This document shows, piece by piece, positions 14,877 through 60,917 of a stretch of 64,000 nt of DNA. Within the stretch, counting starts at the first letter, position 1. Each line of letters begins with the position of its first letter. The DNA is from Streptantibioticus cattleyicolor NRRL 8057 = DSM 46488. GTDB lineage: Bacteria; Actinomycetota; Actinomycetes; Streptomycetales; Streptomycetaceae. The notes below the pieces were generated by a model. The model ran no database searches. It had not been told where the DNA came from and saw only the letters and a program-made list of their open reading frames with translations. The DNA is taken from positions 2,232,001 through 2,296,000 of the forward strand of contig NC_017586.1 of the NCBI RefSeq assembly GCF_000240165.1, in the 5' to 3' direction. The position numbers and the translations under genes are program-made.

Positions 14877-15562
14877 GCGGGTTCGCTCGCGCTGGCGGTC
14901 AGCCATTACCTCCCCGGGTTCCCCCGATCCCCCGTCTCGTCGTGGCTGACGTCACAGCTGTTTCCCCCCGCCCACCCGTGGCTGTGTTCGTACAGTGCGG
15001 GATGCGCACTGTCTGCCTGGGTTCCCGGGGGCCCTCCGGGGTGACTCCTCGCTCCACGCATCGTCTTCGGCTCTCCGCCGGTCCGCTGGGTCGCTGCGGG
15101 GACACCCCTGCACGCCCCCGTTCCGCATCGTTCCGCGCTGCGGCACGGGGTGGGTAAGAAAGGAGATCGGGGTCACCCCAACCTCCTCACTCACCCCCAC
15201 CCGCGAAGAGAGGCACCCGCCAACGGACAGAAGGGGGTGTGCCGGGGGTGTCCCCGCAGCGACCCAGCGGGGCGGCCGAAAGCCGACAACGAAACCTGGA
15301 GCGAGGAGTCACCCCCGGCGCGCCCCCGACCCCGCACCGGCAATAGGCGAACCCACCCCGTGCCGAACCAAACCAAAAACCCACCCCCACCACCCACCAG
15401 ACAGGGGCGAACGGGGGCCACCCCGGCAACCCGAACCGGGCGAACCGGCCACCACTGCATGGCCGGCCCAGCCGTGAGGGGCGGGGATACGGGGCCACCC
15501 CGGAAACCTGGAGCGGGCGAACCGGCCACCGCGTGATGGCCGGCCAAGCCGTGGGGGGCGGG
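14877..15562. repeat. Palindromic composite repeat, copy 1
   Basis: A non-coding element of about 690 bp made of two related arms in opposite orientation. Its left end (from 14877) reads GCGGGTTCGCTCGCGCTGG followed by CGGTCAGCCATTAC. The same end occurs at both termini of copy 2 and, with three mismatches, of copy 3. The two arms share GGGGTGACTCCTCGCTCC and CTGGGTCGCTGCGGGGACAC in opposite orientation. The arms meet near 15165-15185. The right end is degenerate: a unit of about 72 bp is duplicated (15414-15485 and 15491-15562) and the terminal repeat is only partly recognisable. The arm order is the reverse of copies 2 and 3. Confidence 0.85.
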
Positions 15563-28755: not shown

Positions 28756-29332
28756 ATTACGTGGTGGCCGGTTCGCCCGTTTCAGGGTGCCGGGTGGCCC
28801 CGTTCGCCCCTGTCCGGTGGGGGGTGGGGGTGGGTTTTGGTTTGGTTCGGCACCGGGGGCTTCGCCTACTGCCGGTACGGGGTCGGGGGCGCGCCGGGGG
28901 TGACTCCTCGCTCCAGGTTTCGTCGTCGGCTTTCCCCCGCCCCGCTGGGTCGCTGCGGGGACACCCCCGGCACACCCCCTTGTGCCGTCGTGCGGGTGCC
29001 TCTCTTCGCGGGTGGGGGTGAGTGAGGAGGTTGGGGTGACCCCGGTCTTTTTCTCACCCCCTCCGTGCCGCAGCGCGGAACGATGCGGAACGGGGGCGTG
29101 CAGGGGTGTCCCCGCAGCGACCCAGCAACCGGAGCCCAGCCTTGGCGGATACGGGGAGCGAGGAGTCACCCCGGAGGGCCCCCGGAAACCCAGGAAGACA
29201 GTGCACACCCCGCACTGTACGAACACAGCCACGGGTGGGCGGGGGGAAACATCCGTGACCTCAGCGACGACGAAAGGGAAACGGGCGAACCCCGAGGAGG
29301 TAATGGCTGACCGCCAGCGCGAGCGAACCCGC
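28728..29332. repeat. Palindromic composite repeat, copy 2
   Basis: About 605 bp, the cleanest copy. The left terminus (28728-28760) and right terminus (29300-29332) are perfect 33-bp inverted repeats. The left arm is the B type, with GGTGGGGGGTGGGGGTGGG and GGTTCGGCACCGG. The right arm is the A type, with TTTCCCCCCGCCCACCCGTG in inverse orientation and the hairpin ACAGTGC/GCACTGT. The interior is non-coding. It lies between divergent genes (histidine kinase and ppc), so both promoters must sit inside it or in the short flanks. Confidence 0.88.
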
Positions 29333-50360: not shown

Positions 50361-52196
50361 TCAGACCTCTTCGGCCAGCTCCAGCCAGCGCAGCTCCAAC
50401 TCCTCGCGTTCGGCGGCGAGTTCACGCAGGCGGGCGTCGAGGCCGGCGATGCGCTCGAAGTCGGTGGCGTTCTCGGCCATTTCGGCGTGGAGCGCGGTCT
50501 CCTTCTCGGCGACGCGGTCGAGTTGGCGTTCGATCTTCTGGAGTTCCTTCTTGGCGGCGCGCTGGTCGGCCGCCGAGGACCTGGGCTTGTCCTTGGCGGT
50601 CCTGGCGGCGGCAGCGGCGGGGGTGGCCGCGGCGGCGAGGACGGCCTGGCGGCGTTCGAGGTACTCGTCCACCCCGCGCGGGAGCATCCGCAGCGTGCCG
50701 TCGCCGAGGAGGGCGAGGACCCGGTCGGTGGTGCGCTCGATGAAGTACCGGTCGTGGCTGATGACGATCATCGAGCCGGGCCAGCCGTCGAGGAGGTCCT
50801 CGAGCTGGGTGAGGGTCTCGATGTCGAGGTCGTTGGTGGGCTCGTCGAGGAAGAGGACGTTGGGCTCGTCCATCAGCAGCCGCAGGATCTGGAGCCGGCG
50901 GCGCTCACCGCCGGAGAGGTCGCCGACCGGGGTCCACTGCTTCTCCTTGCCGAAGCCGAACCGTTCGCACAGCTGGGAGGCGGTCATCTCGCGTCCCTTG
51001 CCGAGGTCGACGCGCTGCCGGATCGCCTCGACGGACTCCAGCACCCGCCAGTTCGGGTCGAGTTCGGCGACCTCCTGGGAGAGGTGGGCGAGGCGGACGG
51101 TCTTGCCGACGACGATCCGGCCGTGGCCGAGGCCGGCCGGGGCGGCGGCGGTGGCGTCGTCGGCGTCACGGGCGGCGGCGGCCTGGGCGAGGGTCCGCAG
51201 CAAGGTGGTCTTGCCCGCTCCGTTGACGCCGACCAGGCCGATCCGGTCGCCGGGGCCGAGCTGCCAGGTCAGATGGGTGAGCAGGGTGCGGTCGCCGGCC
51301 TTGACGGTGACGTCTTCCAGGTCGAAGACGGTCTTGCCGAGGCGGGAGCCGGCGAACCGCATCAGTTCGGCGGTGTCGCGCGGCGGCGGGACGTCGGCGA
51401 TGAGTTCGTTGGCCGCCTCGATGCGGAACCGGGGCTTGCTGGTGCGGGCCGGGGCGCCGCGGCGCAGCCAGGCGAGTTCCTTGCGGGCCAGGTTCTGCCG
51501 CTTGGCCTCCTCGGTGGCGGCGCGGCGTTCGCGTTCGGCGCGGGCGAAGACGTAGTCGGAGTAGCCGCCCTCGTACTCGTGGACCGCGGCGCGCTGCACG
51601 TCCCACATGCGGGTGCAGACCTGGTCGAGGAACCAGCGGTCGTGGGTGACGCAGACCAGGGCGCAGCGGCGGGCCTGGAGGTGGGCGGCGAGCCAGGCGA
51701 TGCCTTCGACGTCGAGGTGGTTGGTGGGCTCGTCCAGGACGATGAGGTCCGGTTCGGCGATGAGCAGTTTGGCCAGCGCGATGCGGCGGCGTTCACCGCC
51801 GGAGAGCGGGCCGATGACGGTGTCCAGGCCCTGCGCGAAGCCGGGCAGGTCCAGGCCGCCGAAGAGGCCGGTGAGCACGTCGCGGATCTTGGCGTTGCCG
51901 GCCCATTCGTGGTCGGCGAGGTCGCCGATGACCTCGTGCCGGACGGTGGCCCGCGGGTCGAGGGTGTCGGACTGGGTGAGGATGCCCAGGCGCAGGTCAC
52001 CGGCGTGGGTGACGCGCCCGCTGTCGGGTTCCTCCAGTTTGGCGAGGATCCGGATGAGGGTGGTCTTGCCGTCGCCGTTGCGGCCGACGACGCCGATGCG
52101 GTCGCCTTCCGAGACGCCGAGGGACGTGCCGTCGAGAAGCGTCCGGGTGCCGTACACCTTGCTGACGGACTCGACGTTGACCAGGTTGACCGCCAT
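50361..52196 (-). CDS. ABC-F type ATP-binding protein
   Basis: A 611-residue soluble protein with two ABC domains and no membrane part. Walker A motifs are GRNGDGKTT and GVNGAGKTT; the signatures are LSGGERRRIALAKLL and LSGGERRRLQILRLL with DEPTNHLD and DEPTNDLD. A C-terminal coiled coil (AKKELQKIERQLDRVAEKET) is of the Uup type. ABC-F proteins act on the ribosome or DNA replication intermediates rather than in transport. ATG 52196 follows GGAGAAA. The gene lies across the small mobile element from ispE. Confidence 0.9.
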   Translation of the reverse strand: MAVNLVNVESVSKVYGTRTLLDGTSLGVSEGDRIGVVGRNGDGKTTLIRILAKLEEPDSGRVTHAGDLRLGILTQSDTLDPRATVRHEVIGDLADHEWAGNAKIRDVLTGLFGGLDLPGFAQGLDTVIGPLSGGERRRIALAKLLIAEPDLIVLDEPTNHLDVEGIAWLAAHLQARRCALVCVTHDRWFLDQVCTRMWDVQRAAVHEYEGGYSDYVFARAERERRAATEEAKRQNLARKELAWLRRGAPARTSKPRFRIEAANELIADVPPPRDTAELMRFAGSRLGKTVFDLEDVTVKAGDRTLLTHLTWQLGPGDRIGLVGVNGAGKTTLLRTLAQAAAARDADDATAAAPAGLGHGRIVVGKTVRLAHLSQEVAELDPNWRVLESVEAIRQRVDLGKGREMTASQLCERFGFGKEKQWTPVGDLSGGERRRLQILRLLMDEPNVLFLDEPTNDLDIETLTQLEDLLDGWPGSMIVISHDRYFIERTTDRVLALLGDGTLRMLPRGVDEYLERRQAVLAAAATPAAAAARTAKDKPRSSAADQRAAKKELQKIERQLDRVAEKETALHAEMAENATDFERIAGLDARLRELAAEREELELRWLELAEEV

Positions 52197-52234
52197 TTTT
52201 CTCCATGCTCGCCGGATGGTCCGGTCCTACAGCC

Positions 52235-52400
52235 TAGTGCCGCATCAGCCAAGGTTCGTCCCGTCGCGACGCCCGGCACGGCACCTCGCGGCGTTGCCGG
52301 ACCGACCGAGTAGGCCCACTACGAGGCCGATCCGGCGCCTTGCGATGCACCGCACCGGACGCCGCTCCTTACCGGACGAACCCTGGCTGACGCGGCACTA
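52235..52400. mobile_element. Miniature inverted-repeat element (MITE-like) at the ispE stop
   Basis: A 166-bp stretch bounded by 27-bp terminal inverted repeats: TAGTGCCGCATCAGCCAAGG plus TTCGTCC (52235-52261) and its complement (52374-52400), matching at 25 of 27 positions. CTAG occurs at both outer junctions, suggesting a target duplication of a few bases. It has no open reading frame and resembles the ends of an IS5-type element after internal deletion. Its right-hand terminal TAG is the stop codon of ispE on the minus strand. Confidence 0.72.
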
Positions 52401-53327
52401 GTGCCGCCGGGTGGGCGGGGCGACGACGGTGGCTCCGGGGGCGGGGGCGGTGGTGGCCCGGGCGGTGCGGCAGGTGCCGGAGGCGGTGAGCGCCTTGCCG
52501 ATCCGGGCCGCGGCGTCGGCGTCCTCGGCCAGGAAGGCGCAGGTGGGGCCGGAGCCGGAGACGAGGGCGGCGAGGGCGCCGGCCTCGGTGCCGGTGCGCA
52601 GGGTGTCGGCGAGGCAGGGGCGCAGCGACAGCGCGGCGGCCTGGAGGTCGTTGCCGACGGCGGCGGCGAGGGCGGCGGCGTCGCCGGTGCGCAACGCCGC
52701 CAGCAGGGCGGGGGACGCCTCGGGGGCGGGGACGGTGACGGCGGCGGCCTGGCGCAGCCGGTCGCATTCGCGGTAGACGGCCGGGGTGGACAGGCCGCCG
52801 TCGGCGACCGCGAAGACCCAGTGGAAGGTGCCGCCGACGGTGAGGGGTTCGAGGAGTTCGCCGCGTCCGCGGCCCAGGGCGGCGCCGCCGACCAGGCTGA
52901 AGGGGACGTCGCTGCCCAACTCGGCGCAGATGTCGAGGAGTTCGTCGCGGGTGGCGCCGGTGCCCCACAGCGTGTCGCAGGCCAGCAGGGCGCCGGCGGC
53001 GTCGGCGCTGCCGCCGGCCATGCCGCCGGCCACCGGGATGTCCTTGGCGATGTGCAGATGGACGTCGGCCCGGCGGCCGTGGCGGGCGGCGAGGGCCTCG
53101 GCGGCGCGGGCGGCGAGGTTGCCGGAGTCCAGCGGCACCTGGTCGGCGTCGGGGCCGGAGACGGTGATCCGCAGGGCGTCGGCCGGGGTGGCGGTGACCT
53201 CGTCGTACAGGCCGACCGCGAGGAAGACGTTGGCCAGGTCGTGGAAGCCGTCGGCGCGCAGCGGTCCCACGGCGAGCTGCGCGTTGACCTTGGCGGGAAC
53301 GCGGACGGTGACGGGGGCGGTGGTCAC
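52398..53327 (-). CDS. ispE: 4-(cytidine 5'-diphospho)-2-C-methyl-D-erythritol kinase
   Basis: A 309-residue GHMP kinase of the MEP isoprenoid pathway. Motifs are VRVPAKVNAQLAVGPLRADGFHDL, the ATP loop PVAGGMAGGSADAAG with DVPFSLVGG, and the C-terminal ALVSGSGPTCAFLAED. Common IspE enzymes read KINLxL where this reads KVNAQL. The start is GTG 53327 after AAGGAG. Its stop codon TAG lies in the terminal repeat of the MITE-like element at 52235-52400, so the last residues (PPTRRH) abut the insertion. It belongs to the rpfB-rsmA-ispE cluster. Confidence 0.92.
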   Translation of the reverse strand: MTTAPVTVRVPAKVNAQLAVGPLRADGFHDLANVFLAVGLYDEVTATPADALRITVSGPDADQVPLDSGNLAARAAEALAARHGRRADVHLHIAKDIPVAGGMAGGSADAAGALLACDTLWGTGATRDELLDICAELGSDVPFSLVGGAALGRGRGELLEPLTVGGTFHWVFAVADGGLSTPAVYRECDRLRQAAAVTVPAPEASPALLAALRTGDAAALAAAVGNDLQAAALSLRPCLADTLRTGTEAGALAALVSGSGPTCAFLAEDADAAARIGKALTASGTCRTARATTAPAPGATVVAPPTRRH

Positions 53328-60310: not shown

Positions 60311-60917
60311 GCGGGTTCGCTCGCGCTGGCGGTCAGCCATTACTCCGTGGCCGGTTCGCCCGTTCCAGGTTTCCGGGGTGGCCCCCGTTCGCCCCTGCCC
60401 GGTGGGGGGTGGGGGTGGGTTTTGGTTTGGTTCGGCACCGGGGGCTTCGCCTATTGCCGGTACGGGGTCGGGGGCGCGCCGGGGGTGACTCCTCGCTCCC
60501 CGTATCCGCCACAGCTTGGCTCCGGCTACTGGGTCGCTGCGGGGACACCCCCGGCACACCCCCTTCTGTCCGGTTGGCGGGTGCCTCTCTTCGCGGAGGG
60601 AGGGTGAGATAGGAGGTTGGGGTCACCCCGATCTCCTTCTCACCCACCCCGTGCCGCAGCGCGGAACGCAACAGAACGGGGGCGTGCAGGGGTGTCCCCG
60701 CAGCGACCCAGCGGACCGGCCGAGAGCCGAAGACGATGCGTGGAGCGAGGAGTCACCCCGGAGGGCCCCCGGGAACCCAGGCAGACAGTGCGCACCCCGC
60801 ACTATGCGATGACAGCCACGGGTGGGCGGGGGGAAACAATCCGTGACGCCAGCCACGACGAAACGGAAACGGGCGCACCCCGAGGAGGTAATGGCTGACG
60901 GCCGGCGCCAGCGAACC
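60311..60917. repeat. Palindromic composite repeat, copy 3
   Basis: About 607 bp. The left terminus (60311-60343) matches copy 2 exactly; the right terminus (60888-60917) matches at 27 of 30 positions. The B-type arm is left and the A-type arm right, as in copy 2. The A-arm hairpin reads ATAGTGC...GCACTGT. It fills the gap between the pmt stop and the stop of the convergent serine hydrolase gene, ending 2 bp before the latter. Confidence 0.88.

Follow-up and report, generated by a model that had tools for sequence, protein, structure and literature searches.

The 162-bp element that abuts ispE in Streptantibioticus cattleyicolor NRRL 8057 is, to judge from its sequence and that of its relatives, probably a non-autonomous passenger of the MITE kind, combining a conserved hairpin core with exchangeable ends. 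It lies in a window of 64,000 nucleotides from contig NC_017586.1 (the window being the whole stretch of DNA that was analysed), within a host genome of 8.1 Mb on two contigs. The features at this locus are:

50361..52196, minus strand: ABC-F-type ATPase gene, downstream of the element and on the same strand as ispE
52235..52236, no strand: left copy of the TA target duplication, from the reading of the junction
52237..52398, minus strand (that of the better-pairing G-U fold): element proper, from the inverted repeat, TA and RNA fold
52237..52264, plus strand: left terminal inverted repeat, resembling the ends of IS630-type elements
52265..52365, minus strand: conserved 101-nt hairpin core, from covariance model R1
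52371..52398, minus strand: right terminal inverted repeat, from the inverted-repeat match
52399..52400, no strand: right copy of the TA target duplication, which supplies T and A to the ispE stop codon
52398..52400, minus strand: ispE stop codon TAG (read from 52400 to 52398), with TA from the target and G from the element
52398..53327, minus strand: ispE (4-diphosphocytidyl-2-C-methyl-D-erythritol kinase), matching NF002870 and TIGR00154 above their cut-offs

NCBIfam ABC-F models match the gene at 50361..52196, below their cut-offs in the rows checked.

Boundaries and hairpin of the element

An earlier, sequence-only reading had reported a MITE-like element at 52235-52400, and the observation is confirmed. 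The segment is exactly 166 bp including both TA copies, and the inverted repeat together with TA sets the boundaries of the element proper. The description as MITE-like holds, given terminal inverted repeats, TA at the junctions, a length too short for a transposase and many dispersed copies. CTAG stands at both outer junctions as reported (52234-52237 and 52398-52401). The terminal repeats themselves are present, but the proposed length of 27 bp is not what is measured: the arms (52234-52264 and 52371-52401) are 31 nt long and complementary at 28/31 positions. No tandem repeats were found at the element.

Folded as RNA, the minus strand of the element reaches -135.7 kcal/mol (z -14.4, with 0/200 shuffles equally stable) versus -100.6 kcal/mol for the plus strand; as DNA, the plus strand gives a z of -6.3, again with 0/200 shuffles equally stable. 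Model R1 likewise scores 52265..52365 at 107.4 bits on the minus strand and 39.4 on the plus strand. Among ungapped inverted repeats of 31 nt with a span of 70-399 nt, a scan of the window found a single other place that outscores the arms of the element (29/31), and this belongs to a different dispersed palindrome near 15077. That palindrome, of ~279 bp, lies at 15037-15315 (plus strand), 28897-29173 (minus) and 60482-60760 (minus) of the window and occurs in at least 40 places at 82-100% identity; among the matches listed, every one lies on contig C2, and C1 has none.

Copies and distribution

The genome of S. cattleyicolor holds 14 near-full-length copies (77-100%) on both contigs, together with fragments, which excludes the absence of any second copy that had been named as grounds against the original reading. 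DNA matches were obtained in 34 of 61 genomes (its own and 60 relatives). In one relative (G005) the end of the element occurs 84 and 86 times on the two strands, versus once on each for the reversed control, and each of the 14 single perfect ends looked up is matched by a partner, at a span of ~179 bp in 13 cases and of 62 bp in one. The presence of near-identical copies at separate sites, in this genome as in G026, suggests mobility. Matches on plasmids come from 46 records (43 Streptomyces, two Embleya and one Streptantibioticus), and a phage search gave no match at the sensitivity used.

The centre of the matches elsewhere is the inner 101 nt, while the outer arms vary by lineage. A covariance model of this core, built from 28 cores, matches 157 of 200 Streptomycetaceae genomes, leaving 43 without a match. 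In the class it matches 61 of 296 genomes, of which 37 belong to other families, 20 of the 37 matching at E 1e-5 or better; in a sample of the phylum, 7/296 genomes match at E 1e-5, six of the seven being Streptomycetaceae. Such a model for this repeat now exists, and the Rfam version searched had no family for it: positions 51900-52700 gave none at gathering score, and the two matches at E up to 1 fell far below gathering (23.4 of 70 and 12.3 of 196).

Several copies depart from the usual arrangement. L141 and L144 (~62 bp) and L158 (57 bp) are coreless derivatives made of two ends alone, and the partial second copies L020 and L026 directly adjoin the full copies L008 and L014. In genome G189, unlike others, the 10 listed cores (L162, L185-L193) share one orientation with respect to the chromosome centre (10 to 0).

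Insertion sites

Boundaries could be assigned to 123 copies (L178 has none), and 71 of these have TA on both sides. When the flanks of the 71 are joined into an empty site, 59 read CTAG, four TTAG and eight something else. At the TTAG targets L172, L185 and L241 the left junction reads TTA-G and the right one C-TAG, from which it follows that TA alone is duplicated.

In 41 of the 71 copies, accounting for 44 gene ends, a stop codon at the terminus ends a called neighbouring gene; the simple gene caller used agreed with the genes expected around the element and may miss others. The empty site already reads TAG at 42 of the 44 gene ends. It reads TAT at the other two (L064 and L133), where the element or a later mutation thus made the stop. 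Ends that start with A yield TAA instead (L206-L209). In 80 ispE loci, CTAG was found three times inside genes, 15 times at stops and 11 times in intergenic DNA, and since CTAG is rare inside genes, much of the stop-codon effect follows from the choice of target. The 41/71 copies at called stops exceed the 25/80 background CTAG sites (Fisher p 0.0017), against a background that is heterogeneous: 0/5 in the window, 10/46 in the flanks of copies and 15/29 in ispE loci. Given this unevenness and selection against insertion in genes, a preference for stops beyond the rarity of CTAG is not pressed.

Orientation and a possible host role

Could these elements serve the host at the 3' ends of its genes, in the manner of ERIC, REP or terminator-like sequences whose hairpin protects, cuts or ends the mRNA? 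Their frequent start at a stop codon (the 41 of 71 copies above), their very stable hairpin and the excess of convergent over divergent neighbours (30 versus 11, p 0.004) all speak for such a role, which we nevertheless consider unlikely. Across 124 copies the strand of the G-U fold agrees with the direction of the flanking genes in 35 and opposes it in 36, arguing against any preference for the sense strand; the remaining copies have convergent (30) or divergent (11) neighbours, are incomplete (10) or lie inside a called gene (two). Insertions avoid promoters. Neither a T-run terminator nor a promoter match was found at the element, the position of the copies follows from CTAG targeting and the avoidance of genes, and many genomes do without the element, as the unmatched 43/200 Streptomycetaceae illustrate. 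A 3'-UTR function is not claimed, because the core has no sense preference. At ispE itself, the predicted hairpin directly at the stop, between this gene and the ABC-F gene, makes an effect on the transcript plausible, through RNase III cleavage or 3'-end protection.

Ends, transposases and a probable exchange of ends

The ends provide a link to two types of transposase. Ends like those of the element lie on either side of an IS630-type transposase (DDE_3) at L150 and on one side of such a gene at L147; the latter, on a Streptomyces flavofungini plasmid, adjoins TnsA-like and TniQ genes in a Tn7-like block. In two genomes, G087 (L328) and G130 (L325), an IS630-type gene lies between ends with two and three mismatches of 18 to MITE ends of the same genome. 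Ends of the kind found in G005 flank IS5-type transposases on both sides at L153, L154 and L155. A search for partners within the same genome, over 27 loci of 15 genomes, gave a clear partner only in G087 and G130, and none of its IS5-type loci has ends with three or fewer mismatches to the MITE of its own genome on both sides. No autonomous partner of either type was recognised in the S. cattleyicolor genome, where the best IS630-type gene, L327 at 41% identity, is bounded by different ends.

Might each of these elements simply be an ordinary MITE, derived from its own transposon by internal deletion, with the core an old and unselected remnant? The existence of coreless or shortened forms (L141, L144, L158) fits this explanation; the comparison of cores with ends makes it a rather improbable one. 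In a set of 28 elements picked by hand from 27 genomes, identity averages 0.73 in the core and 0.49 in the ends (0.33 when shuffled), a few boundaries being off by some bases, which lowers the end identity. The two ends of any one element agree at 0.91, and core and end identity are uncorrelated (r 0.07), so that the core varies less between elements than the ends do and does not follow their changes. It sits in the ends of two transposase types, the genome of S. cattleyicolor itself carries it between ends of two kinds (L001, L024), and its pairing is kept with compensatory changes. Nor was a larger shared unit outside the ends, or an autonomous form carrying the core, seen among the 124 loci, with 12 matched flank pairs over 60 bp.

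Pairing and strand lean of the core

Once 57 rows are fitted to the model, pairing holds in 95.7% of cells, and both partners vary in 28 of 38 pairs; 0/500 shuffles reach any of five covariation measures, and slid controls pair at 29-54%. The unfitted alignment A1, whose structure was predicted from A1 itself, gives 94.8% pairing and 23 of 38 such pairs. For non-redundant counts, cores at least 95% identical were dropped (63 of 123 kept). From the 63, 55 were carried forward; the eight left out (L006, L007, L009, L010, L012, L013, L014 and L183) are long-centre or degraded copies.

Wobbles lean to one strand. G-U exceeds A-C by 376 to 23 cells in alignment A2, which retains two opposite-strand rows (L004, L198), and by 157 to 18 at its mostly Watson-Crick pairs; the corresponding counts in A1 are 214 to 22 and 93 to 21. 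When the arms of the 63 non-redundant copies are aligned to each other, with both strands treated alike, the core has 421 G-U and 68 A-C, versus 40 and 22 in the outer 20 nt of the same copies. Individually, 61 copies lean to G-U, one is even and one (L014, among the eight cores left out) leans to A-C, the strand of the core having been assigned by the model, which favours a G-U lean.

A mutational origin of the G-U excess, with strand-biased C-to-T change in exposed DNA and common descent in place of selection on a fold, would account for the many wobbles that are shared by descent. It would also suit the orientation of cores by chromosome half, 43 versus 27 (p 0.07; listed rows on seven large contigs), with G189 at 10 to 0. 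We regard this origin as improbable, since the compensatory double changes exceed all shuffles and within the very same copies the core leans strongly and the ends weakly.

A proposed mode of propagation

How, then, would a passenger with a conserved core and changing ends spread? IS630-type transposases would act on ends like those at ispE and IS5-type transposases on the ends found in other species. Insertion would occur into the TA of CTAG, a tetranucleotide rare in genes here and often at stops; where the end starts with G, TA plus G would restore TAG and leave the host protein unharmed. Selection would maintain the 101-nt core through the single-stranded fold of one of its strands, whether as RNA or ssDNA, and on many occasions the core would have become attached to different transposon ends, perhaps because a hairpin allows an end acquired on one arm to be copied onto the other.

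A bolder proposal, which we advance tentatively as a possibility and not as our expectation, sees in the core a structured nucleic-acid module of Actinomycetes in its own right, one that acts through the fold of one strand and persists by repeated capture of unrelated IS630-type and IS5-type ends. The core would then live as a hyperparasite on transposons, a bacterial counterpart of a SINE that relies on DNA transposons. If so, a single small RNA-like module would have outlasted many families of transposon by exchanging its ends, and the capture of ends would become testable. The high copy number of CTAG-targeting elements in gene-dense, GC-rich genomes would also be explained, through landing in stops and respelling them.

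Relation to known elements

The IS630 (Tc1/mariner-like) family shares the type of ends and the TA-in-CTAG target, this preference of IS630 being known from the title of a reference in PMC2170065. Unlike its members, the element has no transposase, nor room for one of the DDE type in 162 bp, and its core occurs between IS5-type ends as well. RUP of Streptococcus pneumoniae is similar by description: a short non-coding repeat with IS630-like ends (IS630-Spn1), TA insertion and many copies (PMC3049150, PMC2229807). RUP is 107 bp, AT-rich and confined to one species, whereas the present element is 162 bp and GC-rich with a core found across families, has ends of two transposase types and lies in stop codons in many of its copies. 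In Pseudomonas syringae, MITEPsy1 is likewise a short MITE at CTAG (or YTAA) and has been seen to move; it is 100 nt long with a 4-nt duplication and ISPsy2-like ends, and the portion of the report consulted describes no class-wide core (PMC3189936). ERIC and Correia/NEMIS, again compared by description only, are palindromic mobile repeats beside genes and can act on mRNA via RNase E or RNase III; the effects reported for ERIC depend on orientation, whereas no orientation preference was seen for the element. The open-access literature searched, as far as its text was available, yielded no description of this element in Streptomyces and none of a conserved core with changing ends.

The ispE stop codon

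Does the element provide the stop codon of ispE, as had been proposed from its sequence? Literally it does, one base of the TAG being the first base (G) of the element. The further claim that insertion replaced the original stop is not supported. The joined flanks give an in-frame TAG at the same codon, and as TA plus the G of the element spells TAG, the ispE stop was most likely rebuilt by the insertion. Replacement is very unlikely, its support being the one element base in the TAG and the few residues by which ispE exceeds its element-free relatives L248 and L273, both of which also end in C-TAG. Inspection of 11 ispE ends found TAG in relatives without the repeat arms. Stops could be read in 78 of 80 ispE relatives (TGA 59, TAG 16, TAA 3), and ispE of Streptantibioticus ferralitis (L318) ends in TGA. 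The longer C-terminus in S. cattleyicolor reads ..VVAPPTRRH (window 52398-52430), and the final codons of the gene, CGG CGG CAC TAG, resemble the terminal repeat once more, perhaps as the trace of an earlier event.
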